23,158 nucleotides of DNA from a virus. The stretch is taken from positions 1-23,158 of the IMG/VR virus record IMGVR_UViG_3300027806_000161. One strand, 5' to 3'. Position 1 is the stretch's first letter, and each line of letters starts with the position of its first letter. Of this stretch, positions 1,995 to 13,997 are shown piece by piece. The notes beneath the pieces were generated by a model, which was not told the origin of the DNA, ran no database searches, and saw nothing but the letters and a program-made list of their open reading frames with translations. The position numbers and the translations under genes are program-made.

Positions 1995-2533
1995 GCGTCC
2001 TTGCATCCTTGGGCCTGAGCCCCGAGCGAGTCCGTGTGATGCTGGCCGCTACAGCCGTCAGCACTGGCAATCTGCCGACAAAACCGAGCAAACCGCCGAA
2101 GGCTGAGAAGCCGCCAAAGCCTCCGAAAGTCTACGTCGTCAAACGGTTTTCCGACGCGCAGATTCAAGCCATGCGCGAGCGTGTTGCGCGAGGCGACAGG
2201 TTGGCGGCTGTAGCGTTTGACTTTAACACGTCGATCCCGCTTGTGTGCAGGATTGCGCGTGGCAACTCCTACAAGCACGCTCCCGGCCCGATCACTAGGC
2301 GCGGCGCTCACGCGAACAAGACCTCGCAACGCATGGTTGCGCCTGACGTAGTCTTGAGAATGCGACTCAACGCAACAATTGGGAACGTGAGGCTGGCCGA
2401 TATCGCTAGGGCTGAGCGATTGCCGTTTCCAACCGTTGCGTTGATTGTCCACGGTAAGACGTACATTGATTGTCCGGGGCCGATTATGAAGCCGCGACGT
2501 TACACGCCGCCCAAGATCCAGACGCACGAATGA
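1991..2533 (+). CDS. DNA-binding protein with two repeated helix-turn-helix units
   Basis: This 180-residue protein has a Pro/Lys-rich linker at 29-46 (PKAEKPPKPPK), then two similar units of about 50 residues at 53-101 and 116-165. Each runs from MR...G through a predicted helix-turn-helix to I..G..Y...PGPI, ending in KHAPGPI and IDCPGPI. The units look like an internal duplication of a resolvase- or NUMOD-like DNA-binding module. No nuclease motif accompanies them. The gene overlaps the large terminase start (ATGA, 2530-2533), so it may act at packaging or as a regulator of the block. That role is inference. Confidence 0.6.
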   Translation: MSVLASLGLSPERVRVMLAATAVSTGNLPTKPSKPPKAEKPPKPPKVYVVKRFSDAQIQAMRERVARGDRLAAVAFDFNTSIPLVCRIARGNSYKHAPGPITRRGAHANKTSQRMVAPDVVLRMRLNATIGNVRLADIARAERLPFPTVALIVHGKTYIDCPGPIMKPRRYTPPKIQTHE

Positions 2534-4329
2534 CGACGCGACAATTCCTAGGCCAAGAGTGGGCGGCTGCTTTCGCGCCCGCAGATCGGCGACCCATTTG
2601 GGAGTGGGCGCATGACAAAATCACCGAGCTGCCCGCTGTCTATGGCGACCGGCGCCGGTTTTCCATCCTTGGCTCGCGGCATTTTGAAGCGCCGTTTCAA
2701 TCCATCCAGAGTCCCAGGGTTCACGAAATCGCGATCCTTGCGCCTGTGCGGTCGGGCAAGACGTTGCTCGCGGACATCTCAATCCCTTGGTTCATCGCCG
2801 AGGAGCACGCGTCTGTGCTGTGGGTTTTCAACACGGACGACATCGCCAAGGAGCACGTCGAGCTTCGGTTGCGCCCGATCCTCGACAACTCGCCTTGCGC
2901 GTCGATGTATCAGTCGGATCGGTTCAAGACGCGGGCGCAGGAGGTTGTTTTCACCAACGGCCAACCGCTGTTTGTGAAGGGTGCAGCGAGGTCAAACCTG
3001 CAAGCGCGGGGCTTCCGCGTGGTCGTGCTAGACGAGTGCTGGCAGTACGGCGCTGGCATCTTGCACGAAGCCAAGGGCCGCCTCGGCGACTTCGTGCGGC
3101 TTGGGAATCACAAGTTTCTGTGCATCTCGCAGGGCGGGGCGCACGGGACGGACTGGCAGATGCACGGCGACGCGGCGACTCGGTATGAGTGGGAAGTCCC
3201 GTGCGCGGCTTGTGGCCAGCACTTCGCGCCCGCGTGGACGGCTTACCGCGAGGATGGCAGCCGTTACGGCATGGTCTACCAGTCCGAGAAGTCGAATGAC
3301 ATCGACGTGGACATTGACCTCGCGTGCGCGACCTCGGCGGTTGAATGCCCGGCGTGCCGCCATCGGCATCCGTGGGGATCAAAGACCATTGGCGAATGGA
3401 ACTCTGGCGGGCGATACAAAGGATGGGACGCGGCAACCGCGCCGGAACGCGTGCTGTTCCATTGGAACGCGCTCATTGACTTCCCGTGGCCAGAGCTTGT
3501 GCGCGAGTGGTTAGGAGCACGGAAGGCGCAGGCCATGGGCAACTATGAGCCTTTGAAGCTGTTTATTCAAAAGCGCCTTGCGGAGCACGACAACCCGCAG
3601 GGCAGGTCCGTCCATTCCATCGTCCACGAGTTCGTCCGGTACGAAGCCGCCGAAGGATGGGAGGACCAAGGCGCGGTGATTATGACTGTGGACGTGCAGC
3701 GGATGCACTATTGGGTAATGGTCTGCGCGGTGTCCAAAAAGGGCGGGGTTGTCCGGCGCTTGTACTATGACAAATGCGAGACCACCGAGGCCATTGACGA
3801 CGTGCGCGAACAGTTCAAGCCAAGCGTCTTCGCCGTGGACGTGAACTACAACCGCAACAAGGACAACAGCGTCTTCCGCATGATTGCTGCGCGACGTGGG
3901 GTTGGTTTGATCGGCGACAAGGCGCAATGGTTTCCGCATCGCCACCGCAAGGTTTCTGGCGAGTTTGAGACGATCCAAAAGCAATATTCCACGCCGGCCG
4001 AAGTGGACGCCTACGAGGGCACAACGGCGCAGGCAAGGGAGCGGCTTGTTACTGTGGTCCGCTTCTCGTCTGATTCAATGGCGAGTCGTTTGCAACGCAT
4101 GATCGACAAGGGGCTTTGGCAGGAACCGACCAAGGAACCTGACTCGGCCAAGGCCCGCGAGTATCACCGTCAGATGAGTTCAGAGCATCGCGAGCAAGGG
4201 CAGGACGCCAATGGAAGGCCCATCGAAAAATGGGTTGCCCACTCCAAGGAGAACCACGCCTGGGACTGCGCTAAGATGGTCCTAATCATGTCCACGATCC
4301 TTGCCGATGCGGGGATGATTGAGTTCTGA
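2530..4329 (+). CDS. Terminase large subunit (lambda gpA / GpA family)
   Basis: ATPase and endonuclease of the packaging motor. The ATG at 2530 is preferred over an in-frame TTG at 2470 because it forms the usual ATGA overlap; it gives 599 residues. Visible motifs are a Walker A-like APVRSGKT at 71-78 and a Walker B RVVVLDE at 163-169. Next is a zinc ribbon with CAAC at 225-228 and CPAC at 273-276. A nuclease domain follows, with likely catalytic Asp388 (MTVDVQ), Asp437 (FAVDVN) and Asp579 (HAWDCAK). The zinc ribbon and length match the gpA family, which usually cuts at cos sites, so cohesive ends are expected for this phage. The Mom-like gene follows with a 1-nt overlap. Confidence 0.93.
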   Translation: MTTRQFLGQEWAAAFAPADRRPIWEWAHDKITELPAVYGDRRRFSILGSRHFEAPFQSIQSPRVHEIAILAPVRSGKTLLADISIPWFIAEEHASVLWVFNTDDIAKEHVELRLRPILDNSPCASMYQSDRFKTRAQEVVFTNGQPLFVKGAARSNLQARGFRVVVLDECWQYGAGILHEAKGRLGDFVRLGNHKFLCISQGGAHGTDWQMHGDAATRYEWEVPCAACGQHFAPAWTAYREDGSRYGMVYQSEKSNDIDVDIDLACATSAVECPACRHRHPWGSKTIGEWNSGGRYKGWDAATAPERVLFHWNALIDFPWPELVREWLGARKAQAMGNYEPLKLFIQKRLAEHDNPQGRSVHSIVHEFVRYEAAEGWEDQGAVIMTVDVQRMHYWVMVCAVSKKGGVVRRLYYDKCETTEAIDDVREQFKPSVFAVDVNYNRNKDNSVFRMIAARRGVGLIGDKAQWFPHRHRKVSGEFETIQKQYSTPAEVDAYEGTTAQARERLVTVVRFSSDSMASRLQRMIDKGLWQEPTKEPDSAKAREYHRQMSSEHREQGQDANGRPIEKWVAHSKENHAWDCAKMVLIMSTILADAGMIEF

Positions 4330-5024
4330 TGAGTGGGCAAAAAGACATCGGAAGCTTGAGGGTTGAGCCGATTCAAACCGCAGAGGCTTTGCCGTGGCTG
4401 CTTGTTCGCCACTACGCAAAGCGGACGTGTCCAATTTCGCACGCCTTTGGGGCTTTTGACGGCTCTTTGCTTGTTGGGGTTGTCACGTACGGTGTTCCAT
4501 CAAGTGCGCCTTTGCGGTCGGGCCTGTGCGGGCCGGAATGGTGCGACAAAGTTTTGGAGCTTAATCGGTTGTGTTGTGACAACAGGAAGAACGTCGCAAG
4601 CGTATTGGTGGGGCGTTCGTTGCGGTTGCTGCCGAGTCCCAGGGTTGTGGTGAGCTATGCGGACACTGGGAGGAACCATGTCGGGTACGTGTATCAAGCG
4701 ACGAACTTCCTTTACACGGGATTGTCAGCGGTCCGGACGGATTGGCGTGTGAAGGGGGAGGAGCATCTGCATGGGGCGACGGTGGCGGATCGGAGTCGTG
4801 GCAAGGAGAACCGTGCGGAGTGGATGCGGGAGACATACGGGGATCGGTTCTATCTGGAGTCGAGGCCGAGGAAGCATCGGTATGTGTTCTTCGTTGGGAA
4901 CCGGTACGAGCGGAAAGCGATGCGGTCGGCGCTTCGATATCAGGTTGAAAAGTACCCCAAGGGTGAGTCAGTAAAATACGACATTGGCGCTGGCATTCAA
5001 AGCCAATCCATATTTGAGTTCTGA
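4329..5024 (+). CDS. Mom-like DNA adenine-modification protein
   Basis: A 231-residue protein matching the Mom family of phage Mu and its many phage relatives. These GNAT-fold enzymes convert adenine in DNA to a carbamoylmethylated form that blocks restriction. The conserved track is visible in order: RHYAKR (27-32), HAFGAFDGSLLVGVVTYGVP (38-57), VLELNRLC (75-82), NVASVLVGRSLRLLP (88-102), VVVSYADTG (106-114), then HVGYVYQATNFLYTG (117-131). These cover the GNAT core strands and the likely active site. The gene starts at TGATG overlapping the terminase stop and has no Shine-Dalgarno, so it is probably translated by coupling. The assignment rests on remembered family patterns, not on a search. 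Confidence 0.82.
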   Translation: MSGQKDIGSLRVEPIQTAEALPWLLVRHYAKRTCPISHAFGAFDGSLLVGVVTYGVPSSAPLRSGLCGPEWCDKVLELNRLCCDNRKNVASVLVGRSLRLLPSPRVVVSYADTGRNHVGYVYQATNFLYTGLSAVRTDWRVKGEEHLHGATVADRSRGKENRAEWMRETYGDRFYLESRPRKHRYVFFVGNRYERKAMRSALRYQVEKYPKGESVKYDIGAGIQSQSIFEF

Positions 5025-5161
5025 TGCCAACCGCGCACGCATTGCTTTTGGCCGTTGTCTTTGCGTGCGGCTTTTGCGTCGGCGTGATTTGGGAAGACCT
5101 GCGCCGGCAGAGATGGGAGAACCGTCAGGCGCAGCGTGAGATGGACAAGTGGAGGCGCTGA
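5024..5161 (+). CDS. 45-residue membrane peptide coupled to the Mom-like gene
   Basis: A short frame starts at the ATG in the TGATG that ends the Mom-like gene. It encodes MPTAHALLLAVVFACGFCVG, VIWEDLRRQRW and then a charged tail ending MDKWRR. Residues 4-22 form one membrane segment with two cysteines, followed by an amphipathic basic helix. The coupled start and sensible protein properties support it as a gene. Small single-pass phage proteins of this type can be holin- or spanin-related or act on the host membrane, but no function can be assigned. It ends 4 nt before the stop codon of the convergent minus-strand gene. Confidence 0.6.
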   Translation: MPTAHALLLAVVFACGFCVGVIWEDLRRQRWENRQAQREMDKWRR

Positions 5162-5174
5162 CCGATCACCGGTC
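5160..5174. repeat. Inverted repeat spanning two convergent stop codons
   Basis: GACCG (5160-5164), spacer ATCAC, CGGTC (5170-5174) form perfect 5-bp arms. They cover the plus-strand TGA (5159-5161) and the minus-strand stop (5166-5168). A bidirectional terminator is possible, but the stem is short and neither side has a T-run. Confidence 0.3.
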
Positions 5175-5630
5175 TAGCTGCCGAAGGAGCGCGGTGAGCG
5201 AGTCGCGGAGCTGCCGTCTCTCGTCGGGGTTGAGTCGAGGGATCCGAGCAGCAACGCGGGACACCCAAGCGAGGATCTTGATGGGCTTGCCCGGCTCTGG
5301 GTTGCGCGGCTCTGGAGCGGGGACAAGCTCGGTCCACATCAGGAGTTGGCGGAAGTCGGCAGAGTCGAGCTTGCCGCCGGTTTCTTTGATGCGCTTGGCG
5401 ACCCGGATGCAATCGCGGGCGCGTTCAATAGTTACGGGGTGATCGCCGCCAACGTCGGCAAGCTGCGCCACGATGTCCGCAAGCTCGGCTTGGTGCGGCT
5501 CCAACGCTTGGCCAAGTGCTGCGGCTGCGTTGACGACCTTGGATGCCGCGATGAATGCCGAGTCCTTGGATGCGGCAAGCGTGGCCGCAAGGGTGCGGAT
5601 GTTAGCGATGTCGGATGTCTGGATGTTCAT
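5166..5630 (-). CDS. Helical protein, second gene of the minus-strand island
   Basis: 154 residues starting at MNIQTSDIAN. Almost all predicted helix: Ala-rich helices at about 8-60, a TIERARDCIRVAKRIKETGG segment at 67-86, a Pro-rich linker (VPAPEPRNPEPGKP) at 103-116, then a final helical domain with LNPDERRQLRDSLTALLRQL. The start overlaps the stop of the upstream minus gene (ATGA at 5627-5630), so the two are almost certainly translated together. Family not recognised. The pairing with a helix-turn-helix protein suggests a regulator partner or antirepressor-like role, which is inference. Confidence 0.68.
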   Translation of the reverse strand: MNIQTSDIANIRTLAATLAASKDSAFIAASKVVNAAAALGQALEPHQAELADIVAQLADVGGDHPVTIERARDCIRVAKRIKETGGKLDSADFRQLLMWTELVPAPEPRNPEPGKPIKILAWVSRVAARIPRLNPDERRQLRDSLTALLRQLDR

Positions 5631-6118
5631 GGTGTGCTTTTGATTCGGAAAAATTGCGCTCCGATCCACTGACGGCCACGGGGCTTTTTCTGCCCGCGCT
5701 TGCGGCACGCTGCGGCCCGATCCTCGCGGGCTTCGTCGTCCATGGACACGCGGCTCTGGATTCCGAGGCGACGTTCCAAGATGCGCTTCTCCTTCGAGAT
5801 GGCGGCACGGGTGCAGCCGATGAGCTTGGCCACGTCGTGCATGGAGTGCGGGCACTTGTTGAGGACGAACAACAGCGCATAGGCGAGGATGCGCCCGTCG
5901 CGGTTTTTCTCGGTGAACATATGGAGCACGTCCACCAAAGCGCCCGACATGGACGACGCGCCGATGGACCCGCGCCCGTCTGCCCACTCGCGCACGATGG
6001 CGTCGATGGTGTCCGGCTCTCGGTCCGACGCGACAAGCTCCGACACCAGTTCGTCAATCGGGTCTGCCTGCGGGGCTTCCGAGGCTAGCGGGTGGTCGGC
6101 TGCATCCATGTCGAGCAT
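5627..6118 (-). CDS. Helix-turn-helix protein, likely regulator of the island
   Basis: 163 residues. A central helix-turn-helix is clear at about 92-118 (SMHDVAKLIGCTRAAISKEK, then RILERRLG), resembling the DNA-binding part of sigma-region-4 or small-terminase-like phage proteins. The N terminus is acidic and helical. The C terminus (137-151) is strongly basic (CRKRGQKKPRGRQ), as expected for extra DNA contact. It is the first gene of a minus-strand pair set inside an otherwise plus-strand morphogenesis operon. Its upstream region shares a 63-bp divergent gap with the head gene at 6182, where a perfect inverted repeat sits. Start ATG at 6118; a second in-frame ATG lies at 6109. Confidence 0.7.
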   Translation of the reverse strand: MLDMDAADHPLASEAPQADPIDELVSELVASDREPDTIDAIVREWADGRGSIGASSMSGALVDVLHMFTEKNRDGRILAYALLFVLNKCPHSMHDVAKLIGCTRAAISKEKRILERRLGIQSRVSMDDEAREDRAAACRKRGQKKPRGRQWIGAQFFRIKSTP

Positions 6119-6463: not shown

Positions 6464-7999
6464 ATGGCCGAAGCACCATTCAAGATCACGGATCGGCGAG
6501 GCTCCGAGCAATACCGCAACGCCATTGCGTTCTCGGAGCCTGTGGCGAGGCGCTACGATGGGCAACGGCGATACGTCGAGGACTTCAACGACGATGCGTC
6601 GCGACTGGTCACGCGCTATTCCCGTGAGGCGCTTGTCAGCATGGGGCGCTACCTGTACCAGAACGCGTCCCCGGTGCGGTCGGCGCTGAACCAGATGGCC
6701 GAGTATGGCGCGACCGGCATCCAACAGCAATTTGATGGATTGGATGTCGAATGGGGCAGGCAGGCTGAGGGTTGGCTCTACGAAAACAACCGGGTCTGCT
6801 GCGTCAATGGCGGCGTCTTCACGATGGATGCGCTGAAGGAAATGCTCCTTTTGTGCTACCTGCGCGACGGCGACTCGTTCGTGTTGCTGACCGAGACGTC
6901 CAACGGTTACCCACAGTTTCAGCACATTCCAGCGCATCGCATCGGCAGCCGCGGCCTTACCAAGGTCATCAGTGGGCCGTTCGATGGATACCGAATCCAG
7001 GACGGCGTGGTGGTCAACGACGTGGGTCGGCCCATCGGCTACCAGATCCTCGGCGACACGTCCAAAGAGGACCGCTACGTTTCCGCCGATTCCATCGTGC
7101 CCGTTTTTCTTCCGGAGTACCCCGACCAAGTGCGCGGCATTCCGCCGCTGGTTGCTGCCATTCTCGACTGTCAGGATGTCAGCGAGTCGCGCCGGTTGGA
7201 GATGGTTTCGCAGAAGGTTTTCGCTGGGCAATCGCTCATCGTCCACAACGAGGATGGCGGTCCAACCGAAACCGCCAACCAGATTCTCGGCTTCGGCTCT
7301 GGCGGACTGAATGCCCAAGGCCAGCCGACAACCGACGGTGTTCCTGTCGCTGTGCGCGAGCTAATTCCAGGTGAGATCCGCTACTTCCGCGCCGGCAGCA
7401 ATTCCAAGGTTGAGGCGGTCACGGGCGACCGTCCGACGCAGAATCAGCGGGAGTTTTCGCATTCAATCCTTCGCCAAGCCATCGCGTCCATCGGTTGGTC
7501 AATCGACATCGCGCTTGACCAAGGCCGAGCCGGCGGGGCGCAGATGCGCGTTGTGCTGGAGTTGTGCAACCGGCGCCTAAACCATTTGCGGGAGCGGATG
7601 CTTTTTCCAGCGCTTCGGCGGATGGACGGTTACCGTATCGCTAAAGCGCAAATCCTCGGCATCCTGCCGCGCTCGGACGAGTGGTACAAATGGGATTACC
7701 TGTCGCCGGCCGAACTGACGGCGGACAAGAAGTACGACGCGCAGGTTGCGCTTGACCAGTACAAGGCGGGGTGGATCACGGGCCGGCAGGCGTGCGCCCG
7801 TCTCGGCCTGTGGTATGACGACGTGGTGTCGCGTCGCGAGACCGAGACCCGCGAGCTTATTGACGCCGCCAAGCGAATCGCCGCCGAAACCGGCACGCCG
7901 TTTGAAACCGCGCTTGTTCTGCTCCGCGATACTGGAGCCTACAGTTCCGTCACCAATTCCGCAGCCGCAATGACCGAGCAAACGCAACCCACCGAATGA
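6464..7999 (+). CDS. Portal protein (lambda gpB family)
   Basis: 511 residues, the usual size of lambda-type portals. The dodecameric portal forms the DNA entry and exit channel at one capsid vertex. Recognisable features include the N-terminal clip/stem start with ASPVRSALNQMAEYG, and CVNGGVFTMDALKEMLLLCY, then LRDGDSFVLL (the family's received DGD-F pattern). Further on are VPVFLPEYPDQVRGIPPL (the family's R-G-x-P segment) and the C-terminal region with RQACARLGLWYDDV. The last residues are Gln/Thr-rich. The end overlaps the protease start (ATGA, 7996-7999), as expected for the head operon. Confidence 0.92.
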   Translation: MAEAPFKITDRRGSEQYRNAIAFSEPVARRYDGQRRYVEDFNDDASRLVTRYSREALVSMGRYLYQNASPVRSALNQMAEYGATGIQQQFDGLDVEWGRQAEGWLYENNRVCCVNGGVFTMDALKEMLLLCYLRDGDSFVLLTETSNGYPQFQHIPAHRIGSRGLTKVISGPFDGYRIQDGVVVNDVGRPIGYQILGDTSKEDRYVSADSIVPVFLPEYPDQVRGIPPLVAAILDCQDVSESRRLEMVSQKVFAGQSLIVHNEDGGPTETANQILGFGSGGLNAQGQPTTDGVPVAVRELIPGEIRYFRAGSNSKVEAVTGDRPTQNQREFSHSILRQAIASIGWSIDIALDQGRAGGAQMRVVLELCNRRLNHLRERMLFPALRRMDGYRIAKAQILGILPRSDEWYKWDYLSPAELTADKKYDAQVALDQYKAGWITGRQACARLGLWYDDVVSRRETETRELIDAAKRIAAETGTPFETALVLLRDTGAYSSVTNSAAAMTEQTQPTE

Positions 8000-10592: not shown

Positions 10593-13500
10593 ATGAAGAC
10601 TTTTTTCCTGCTCCTGCTGCTGCCGCTGCTGGCGCTTGGCCAGATTACCAATGTCGTTATTGGAACTTCCGCAAATGACGGCACGGGCGACACGCTGCGC
10701 GGCGCGTTCAGCAAGGTTAACACAAACACGGCTTGGCTTTCTTCGCAAATTGGTTTTACTACAAACGGAATTGCAACCATTTCAAACCGGCTGTTTTACA
10801 GTCAAACAAGCTATTCTATTTACGAACCAACTGCAACCAATCGGTTCATATTGGACTCGTCTTCGTCTGGTTTTCAATACAACCATGACGCGTCACTTGC
10901 CTACTATAGAGGCACATGGTTTGCGCAATGGAACGCAAACACAAACCAGAACGAATCAAATCCTGGACAGGTCAATTTGCAGAGTACGTCAACCGACTTC
11001 GTTACGTGGTCTTCTCCTGTTCCCGTCTTTGTCGATGCGTCCACGTCTTCAAATCCTGTTACCTATTCCTATTCTTCCGACATCCAGTGGCAGCCGAGCA
11101 TGGTTGTTGTCGGGTCGGAATTGTGGTCGATTTGGAGCCAGCAGCTTCCGCTGACGTATCCGACTGGACAGCGGATTTATTTCTCTCGTCTTACGTCCCC
11201 GACTGGAAAATGGACAAATAATCTACTGAGCCTCAACTACACCGAAAGTGGAATGACATTCTACGGATTCCCAACTCAGAATCCGTTGCAGCTTCAAAGC
11301 GGTCGCGTGGTTGCTCCGATTGTTTGGATGGCTACAAATCAGGTTTCTCCCTTACCTTCTGGGTGGACTTCTTCTGATAATTTTTTTGTCATCCAAAAAA
11401 GAGCTGGTGTAATTTACACCGACGACGGAGGAGTAACTTGGAACATTGGTGGAACCACTACACTTCCTGGGTATAATTACGTTACGTGGGAGCCTGTTAT
11501 TCAGCAAGCTCCGGACGGTTCGATCAGGCTCTATTGCCGAAATCTTGATTACAAGAATTTTGGCTACAACAGCTTTCTATTGACTGCAACAGGATACAGC
11601 GACGGGGCAGTTTTCGGTCCTTTGCAAATTGTTGGAATTGACACTCCATCTAGTCGTCTAGGAATGGTTTCCCAATCCGGAAAATATCCCCGCCAGATTG
11701 GGTTTGCAAACGATTGGAAAGGTGGAGGATTTGTTAATGACAGATATAACGGGGCTTTGTTGTTTAGCAGATACGGGATGGACGATATGGTTTTCGGTGT
11801 TCCTTTTAGTGGAAACGAAACGGTTGTCGCATATCCTCAAGCTGTCGCTACCACGTCCGATGTTAGGGTAATCTATTCTCAAGGAAGTGTTCCAAGGTCG
11901 ATAAAGTCTGCTGTAATTTCTCCTGCTCCGGATCCGTCTTTGCTGTACCTGCTGCCTAGGCGAAACGACTACGTTAATCCACAGGTCGCATTTAGGGCTG
12001 GGCCGCCAGCGTATTTTGAGCATGGGGCAAATTCCACTATGTCGTCTGTTGCTTCAACAGACATTTGGTCTTCCACAAACCAATTTAGTTCTGGAATGTG
12101 GCTGTTTCGCACAAATAACGCATCTAGCGAGACGTTTTTTGATTTCCGTTCACTTGTTGGGTATCAGGGTGCGGCCTTGGCTTCTCTTTCAGGGGTTCCT
12201 TTCCTCACTGTTTATTCCGGAACTTCGCCTCAAAACGTCACATTTGAAACACTATCAATACCGACAAATCAGTGGGTTTATGTAGGTCTTTCGTATGACG
12301 GCGGCTCCACTTCCGTGACGGCGCATGTGGTTGATGCTTCGGGAACGGCAACTACGCAAACAAAATCTCTTAGTTCTCCTAATGGACTGAATGGATCCGT
12401 ATTAAATATAGGGCTTTCGCAGCCAGGCTCGTCGCTTGCCAGATTTAGCGGCGCAGTCAGGCATTTGTCCATCATCAATGGAGTTGTTGCAACGGCCGAC
12501 AACCATCGCTATTTGCACGGTGTAGACCAATCGGCTCTCGGCGCTTCAGATTGGTCTGGAACAGAAACAAACCCTGGAACGCTTTCGTTTGATTACTGGG
12601 CAGCGGATCCAAATGCCGGAAGCAACAATTCCACATGGCTGGCGTCATGGTCTGCAACCGGAAACTCCGTTCGCGGAAATGCTTACAGCTCTACCATTGG
12701 ATCAGATTCCGTCCTTTCAGTAACCGGCACCGGCTCTGCTGGCGTCGAGCTGTTTCCATTCACCCCTGGTCAACAGCTTGCCTTCGGAACGCAGGTTTTA
12801 CTTACAAACAAAACAAGTGGATATGATCAGGTCATAGCAACCATTGGCCCAAAGCCTTCACGAATTGACATTGTAAGCAGAAACGCAAACTCAACCCGCG
12901 TTGAAGCGTACTCGGCTGAAACTGGAGCGTATTACGATTTGGGTTCATACATAACTGGCGAGTATGTTGATTTTTCAATGTCTTTTGATGGGCAGCTTCT
13001 TTCGGTTTCTTGGGCAAAGGGCTCCGAAGTTCAAATTCCAGTAAGCTTTAAAAGCCCACGACTTTATTTCGGAACCGGCTACCTTGACACCTGGACCATC
13101 AACGCATCTGATGGAAAGGCTTACAAGCTGTCTTCTACCTACTGCCATGTAGGAACCGCGGTTCCGTATGTGTCCCAGTCGAGAAAGCTTTCGGGTTTGA
13201 CCGTTGAATCCGCGACTCCAGCCGTGACGTTGACTGATACGGATTCCCCGGCAAAAACGAATTTCATCTATGCGCTTGGCGCCAATGTTCGCATTGGCGG
13301 GACAAATCAAGCGACATCCGCTCCGTTTTTGTTTGAGAACGGAAACGGAAACTTTACCGCTGGAGGTCAGATTACGGCTGGAGGAACAGTTACGTCGCCT
13401 GGCGAATTGGTGAAAGCCTACGCTGGCGCAGCTGACGTAAATCAGCGACGCATCAATGGCACGTCTGCGTCTCCCGCAACCATTGCAAGCGGTGACAGGC

Positions 13501-13997
13501 TTGGAGCCTCTTTTTGGTCTGGATATGATGGCTCCTCTGAAACAACCGCAAGGGGGTCAATCCGAGGAGAGGCGTCGCAAACTTGGAGTTCAGGGGCAAA
13601 CGGAACTAGGGTTGTTGTGCAAACAACTCCTAACGGATCTTCCACGCGAGCCGATGTGTGGGCGTGGGAAAACGATGGCAATGCAACAATGACTGCTTCT
13701 TCCCCTATTCTTGACGCAGTAGCATCGAATGGTGCATCCGGATTTAGGCTTAGGGTTACTGGAGCAACTACGGCGCTTTTTCGCGTTTTGGACAATGTCA
13801 GCACAACCAGATTTCAGGTTGAAGGAACCGGCAATATAACAGTGTACGGGAAAGTTATTATGGGGGCTGGAGGGCCCACGATTACAACCGGTTCCGGCGT
13901 TCCGTCAGCGTCCGAACCAGATGGCTCAATTTACATGAGGACTGGTGGAAGTCCTTATTTCTATGTTCGCGAAGGCGGAGCTTGGGTTGGAAAGTAA
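10593..13997 (+). CDS. Large fibre or spike with sialidase-like propeller and LamG-like domains
   Basis: 1134 residues. The N terminus is a clear Sec-type signal peptide (MKTFFLLLLLPLLALGQ). It is followed by the phage fibre N-terminal signature TSANDGTGDTLRGAFSKVNT (about residues 25-44). Residues about 80-455 look like a beta-propeller: they include a full Asp-box, T276-D-D-G-G-V-T-W283, and segments such as SGRVVAPIVW and GSIRLYCRN as in sialidase-like glycosidases. Residues about 465-640 form a LamG-type lectin sandwich (PTNQWVYVGLSYDGGSTSVT), and about 670-855 look like a second sandwich. The C terminus (PDGSIYMRTGG, REGGAWVGK) is a common fibre end. The gene is lower in GC than its neighbours, suggesting recent acquisition. 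Glycan binding or cleavage on the host or in mucus is likely; the catalytic residues are not confirmed. Confidence 0.75.
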   Translation: MKTFFLLLLLPLLALGQITNVVIGTSANDGTGDTLRGAFSKVNTNTAWLSSQIGFTTNGIATISNRLFYSQTSYSIYEPTATNRFILDSSSSGFQYNHDASLAYYRGTWFAQWNANTNQNESNPGQVNLQSTSTDFVTWSSPVPVFVDASTSSNPVTYSYSSDIQWQPSMVVVGSELWSIWSQQLPLTYPTGQRIYFSRLTSPTGKWTNNLLSLNYTESGMTFYGFPTQNPLQLQSGRVVAPIVWMATNQVSPLPSGWTSSDNFFVIQKRAGVIYTDDGGVTWNIGGTTTLPGYNYVTWEPVIQQAPDGSIRLYCRNLDYKNFGYNSFLLTATGYSDGAVFGPLQIVGIDTPSSRLGMVSQSGKYPRQIGFANDWKGGGFVNDRYNGALLFSRYGMDDMVFGVPFSGNETVVAYPQAVATTSDVRVIYSQGSVPRSIKSAVISPAPDPSLLYLLPRRNDYVNPQVAFRAGPPAYFEHGANSTMSSVASTDIWSSTNQFSSGMWLFRTNNASSETFFDFRSLVGYQGAALASLSGVPFLTVYSGTSPQNVTFETLSIPTNQWVYVGLSYDGGSTSVTAHVVDASGTATTQTKSLSSPNGLNGSVLNIGLSQPGSSLARFSGAVRHLSIINGVVATADNHRYLHGVDQSALGASDWSGTETNPGTLSFDYWAADPNAGSNNSTWLASWSATGNSVRGNAYSSTIGSDSVLSVTGTGSAGVELFPFTPGQQLAFGTQVLLTNKTSGYDQVIATIGPKPSRIDIVSRNANSTRVEAYSAETGAYYDLGSYITGEYVDFSMSFDGQLLSVSWAKGSEVQIPVSFKSPRLYFGTGYLDTWTINASDGKAYKLSSTYCHVGTAVPYVSQSRKLSGLTVESATPAVTLTDTDSPAKTNFIYALGANVRIGGTNQATSAPFLFENGNGNFTAGGQITAGGTVTSPGELVKAYAGAADVNQRRINGTSASPATIASGDRLGASFWSGYDGSSETTARGSIRGEASQTWSSGANGTRVVVQTTPNGSSTRADVWAWENDGNATMTASSPILDAVASNGASGFRLRVTGATTALFRVLDNVSTTRFQVEGTGNITVYGKVIMGAGGPTITTGSGVPSASEPDGSIYMRTGGSPYFYVREGGAWVGK

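Follow-up and report, generated by a model that had tools for sequence, protein, structure and literature searches.

To our knowledge, Mom is one of the few phage enzymes known to place a large group on adenine, and in phage Mu it is tightly controlled. Mom is a GNAT-superfamily enzyme that acts at adenine N6 (PMC7824862), and it protects Mu DNA from restriction enzymes (PMC6483171). The mom gene adjoins com in both Mu and SfMu; in Mu, where it is the last gene of the genome, it overlaps com, lies apart from the head genes and has its start unmasked by Com (PMC6483171). A Mom-like GNAT gene is also described at the genome 3′ end of the Bacillus phages Thornton and SerPounce, and in Thornton 21 bp are identical on both sides of this gene, whereas the relative Juan carries a single copy (PMC9965433).

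Here we describe a Mom-family gene in a 23,158-base IMG/VR virus record, analyzed over its whole length and referred to below as the window; the record carries no end repeats and may therefore be a fragment. In contrast to Mu, the gene overlaps the large terminase gene (terL) and lies between terL and the portal gene. In the window, too, mom has the same stretch on either side (4319-4331 and 5014-5026), as in the Thornton/Juan type of insertion, although the Thornton and SerPounce genes, unlike the one described here, are not reported beside terL. Mom relatives are numerous, with 277 phage records carrying one by tblastn and at least 586 confirmed in a scan of IMG/VR, so the presence of mom in a phage is ordinary. 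We regard the insertion pattern as the most interesting part of the locus.

A full-length member of the Mom family

The mom gene is an intact open reading frame (ORF) running from ATG to TGA at 4329-5024 (+), and profile, fold and alignment place its 231-aa product, with a GNAT fold, in the Mom family of DNA-adenine modification enzymes. A prior reading of the bare sequence (hereafter the original prediction) had proposed a Mom-like gene here on the strength of five motifs, HYAKR, FGAFDGSLLVGVVTYGVP, ELNRLC, VVSYAD and HVGYVYQATNF, all of which we found in the protein. It had also suggested a search against Mom-family models and a fold comparison with GNAT structures, and both analyses bear it out. 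Pfam PF25680 (Mom) matched end to end, over profile positions 2-202 of 202, at 1.8e-35 and 122.9 bits, well above the curated cut-off of 27.1. PHROG 1384, annotated as 'Mom-like DNA modification protein', matched at 6.2e-48, and the solved Mu Mom structure 8bv8 was matched by sequence alone (phmmer 7e-10). An AlphaFold2 model built from 28 sequences (pLDDT 85.9) had 8bv8 as its best match in the PDB (TM 0.64-0.66); the top two matches were both Mu Mom (E 1.1e-11 and 1.0e-10), with the next GNAT following at 4e-5.

Mu Mom and the window protein, about 30% identical, are alike in sequence and fold over their full length and have the same key serine. S91, which 25 of 26 sequences retain, aligns with S124 of Mu Mom; that S124A is inactive is taken from the title of the 8bv8 entry, 'inactive mutant S124A'. 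Also kept are H28, Y29, R32, E77, R80, N88, D112, Y122-Q123-A124, N126 and Y209-P210-K211, and in the alignment codons 88-114 (4590-4670, +) hold the conserved N88, S91, S109, A111 and D112. One relative that was misframed in the alignment (L088) was excluded both when residues were counted and from the alignment on which the fold model was built. In a tree, the window Mom falls near the relatives L012 and L010 with weak support and on a longish branch. Its membership in the family is as firm as sequence and modeled fold allow, nothing in its sequence suggests a dead copy, and the protein is a new addition to the known Mom family.

By analogy with Mu, the product is most likely an N6-modified adenine in the phage DNA, probably of the carbamoylmethyl type. 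The enzyme would attach a small carbamoylmethyl-type group to adenine N6 and thereby block host restriction enzymes, an anti-restriction role to which homology points. It seems to us improbable that this is instead a Mom-fold GNAT with a changed substrate, moving another group to adenine or to another base, or modifying a protein. Identity to Mu Mom of only about 30%, the chemical diversity of GNAT enzymes (PMC8072286) and a literature search that found no product measurement for the subfamily of the window Mom leave room for such a change. It fits poorly with a profile match over the full length, with a fold match in which the E-value for Mu Mom is better than those for other GNATs by a factor of over six orders of magnitude, and with the features common to Mu Mom (H28, Y29, R32, E77, R80, N88, S91, D112, the YQA-NF motif and the YPK end).

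Position behind the large terminase gene

Upstream in the same packaging module lie a small terminase subunit gene (terS; 99-590, +; phrog_57, 1.3e-7) and terL (2530-4329, +), whose product is a large terminase subunit of the GpA type by profiles (GpA_ATPase 9e-20, GpA_nuclease 3e-11) and alignment with sister phages. Judged from the alignment with the sisters, ATG 2530 is a more likely terL start than TTG 2470, where the mechanically called ORF begins. The terL stop TGA (4327-4329) and the mom start ATG (4329-4331) have one base in common (TGATG). The original prediction had called the gene fused by overlap to the terminase; the 1-nt overlap with the terL stop is real, but these are two separate ORFs and there is no fusion. 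Because the first nine or so Mom residues are not conserved across the aligned relatives, TTG 4356 is a possible alternative start, and the overlap depends on choosing ATG 4329. Two further contigs (L002 and L003) encode the same 231-aa Mom in the same context and share the junction, which makes an assembly accident unlikely.

Among the loci examined, it is unusual for mom to lie in the packaging module with a stop-start overlap. For the 80 IMG/VR relatives that were closest among the matches listed, a tblastn search with the window TerL showed terL directly upstream of mom in no case. The nameable large neighbors in these 80, identified with PHROGs and Pfam, were DnaB-type helicases, primosomal proteins, primase-helicases, DNA polymerase, DEAD helicases and methylases. 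On 45 relative records, every terminase detected with profiles lay apart from mom, with no same-strand terL directly upstream; the nearest lay about 2 kb downstream of mom (L087). As many of the relative contigs are short, this comparison of positions should be read as a survey rather than a census. The closest proteins among the matches listed, a group of IMG/VR relatives 61-73% identical to the window Mom (L010-L023), have the same length and motifs, but their identified neighbors are helicases, a replication initiation protein and a Dam-like methylase rather than terL. In named phages, mom occupies early small-gene clusters (Listeria phages) or has DNA polymerase neighbors (Microbacterium and Salmonella phages), and Bacillus phage Riggi alone was observed to have mom next to terL, the two genes there being divergent. 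The original prediction had also contrasted this arrangement with the com-mom operon of Mu. The place directly behind terL stands; as for Com, its zinc finger (PF10122) had no match in the window, but the positive controls of that search were silent too.

Some relatives have neighbors that are of note in their own right. The closest of them (73%; L010:716-3215) comes after a D12-class adenine methyltransferase-like gene. In Roseobacter phage CRP-902, a gene annotated as a VRR-nuclease lies directly upstream of the Mom relative (L007:4651-5660), and another relative has a small downstream ORF that we read as nuclease-like (L005:9977-12605); both recall the Mom-endonuclease fusions described in jumbo phages (PMC7824862).

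Evidence for insertion at the terL 3′ end

Three sister contigs (L090, L091 and L092), with TerL proteins 59-60% identical to that of the window, have in common with it the gene order terS, terL, a minus-strand pair, a small gene, portal and S49 protease, and none has mom between terL and the minus-strand pair. PF25680 had no match anywhere on these sister records, which are fragments, nor on the control genomes. In the window, the minus-strand pair (5166-6118, −) separates mom and a small downstream ORF from the portal gene (6464-7999, +; by profiles). Its two ORFs, which sit inside a plus-strand head module, are conserved in the sisters without mom at about 70% and 40% identity and had no match in Pfam, PHROG or PADLOC where searched. 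The small ORF (5024-5161, +; 45 aa, with a hydrophobic N-terminal stretch) overlaps the mom stop by 1 nt, again at TGATG. No counterpart of it was found in the sister phages, and it may have arrived with mom or predate it.

Two identical copies of a 13-bp direct repeat, TTGAGTTCTGATG, flank mom, each running into the start codon of the next gene: the left copy (4319-4331, +) comprises the end of terL and the mom start codon, and the right copy (5014-5026, +) the end of mom and the start codon of the 45-aa ORF. Neither this repeat nor the absence of mom from the sisters formed part of the original prediction. The IEF C-terminus of terL is also present in the sisters, the window Mom ends in EF*, and nearly all Mom relatives, the nearest included, end otherwise; the copy at the mom end therefore looks like the duplicate. 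In codon usage, mom has the second-worst fit to the window of 27 genes.

The repeat could be a coincidence in which both genes simply end in EF* and use a TGATG junction. The overlap itself accounts for five of its 13 bases (TGATG), the Mom of L073 likewise ends in EF, and under a Markov model the 1.1-kb stretch would contain some 13-mer repeat by chance with a probability of about 1.3%. We consider a coincidence rather unlikely, given that the two copies agree at every base and keep register with the gene ends, and that flanking repeats of at least 11 bp are commoner at Mom genes than at other genes. Such repeats were found at 5 of 61 clustered Mom genes, the window included, versus 0-3 of 179-187 like-sized other genes under three settings (p 0.0008-0.027) and 5 of 183 under a fourth (p 0.07). 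This enrichment, sought after the first case had been seen, is suggestive.

The mom gene of Riggi (NC_022765; L009:4460-5175), whose product is 39-44% identical to the window Mom, is a neighbor of terL and has a copy of a 19-bp repeat, GTATTACCTGAGTAATATA, on either side. Its close relative Finn, which aligns at 95-99% on both flanks, lacks mom at exactly this point and has one repeat copy (L116:1559). The wider Riggi repeat, TTGACATATT(A/G)GTATTACCTGAGTAATATA, resembles in our reading a sigma-70 promoter (TTGACA...TAATAT). Riggi and the window thus both have mom directly beside terL and flanked by direct repeats, but in Riggi the gene is divergent from terL and the repeat promoter-like, whereas in the window the gene is co-directional and the repeat is a stop-start junction. 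Riggi also has in Finn a close relative with a single repeat copy, whereas the sisters of the window that lack mom vary in what comes after terL. A search of IMG/VR for the pattern of an empty-site junction returned three matches, none of them related, and no single-copy relative was found. Insertion of mom at the terL 3′ end is well supported; with no empty site found and sisters that vary after terL, we only infer the mechanism of insertion.

Putative coupling of mom to terL

Our preferred explanation, to which we give a probability of roughly 0.7, is that, in the lineage of the window, a Mom-type adenine modifier entered as a cassette at the terL 3′ end and has its translation coupled to terL. 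Insertion would have duplicated the terL terminus and start signal, TTGAGTTCTGATG; mom would thereby have inherited the stop-start overlap that it forms with terL, and the 45-aa ORF would have kept an identical one. Ribosomes finishing terL would probably reinitiate at TGATG and translate mom, and through this coupling the DNA would be modified around the onset of packaging. Expression of mom would then, as the original prediction had proposed, accompany that of the packaging genes, and it would be late, as it is known to be for Mu mom.

We found no promoter-like site between terL and mom, and the only Shine-Dalgarno-like run, GGGGAT, is farther upstream of the mom ATG than usual. A ten-base arm in mom codons 1-4, GAGTGGGCAA (4331-4340, +), is perfectly complementary to an arm inside terL, TTGCCCACTC (4235-4244, +), and might occlude the mom start; complements of this kind occur at about 0.6% of window positions, and the mom gene is identical in all three copies. 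Predicted accessibility at the mom start (0.25) was the lowest of 23 starts checked, and the RNA around it folded with a stability no greater than that of shuffled sequences (z −0.54). By analogy, there is a weak case that ribosomes translating the end of terL open the mom start, with an outcome comparable to that of Com in Mu, and translational coupling of mom to terL is plausible.

How much the location means is evenly balanced in our estimate: mom could be an ordinary moron behind terL, translated from its own start, with no link between modification and packaging. Mom relatives are found at a variety of positions, the Riggi gene is divergent from terL, the identical 1-nt overlap recurs at the next gene, and GGGGAT could serve as a Shine-Dalgarno-like signal for mom; the same-strand overlap with terL, the occluded start and the lack of a promoter-like site between the two genes nonetheless favor coupled expression at least. 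If coupling to terL holds, a Mom without a detected Com, apparently controlled by its place behind terL alone, would be a simple system for the timing of DNA disguise versus packaging.

The repeat-flanked insertions beside terL in the window phage and in Riggi/Finn suggest how counter-restriction genes move between phages. A further-reaching proposal, which we offer as speculation and think distinctly unlikely, is that mom spreads as small cassettes that duplicate an expression signal of the recipient. The signal would be a promoter-like piece in Riggi and the stop-start junction in the window, so that mom would be wired in while the next gene keeps its own signal; terL translation, opening the mom start, would here be an in-cis equivalent of Com.

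A PADLOC search gave no match. The named phages had no nucleotide similarity to the window, and a search of bacterial genomes for TerL relatives found none. At 10593-13997 (+) the window encodes a protein of 1134 aa that has a BT_1020-like beta-propeller match; its gene is low in GC and departs from the remainder of the window in codon usage, and it is probably a separately acquired tail or carbohydrate-binding protein.
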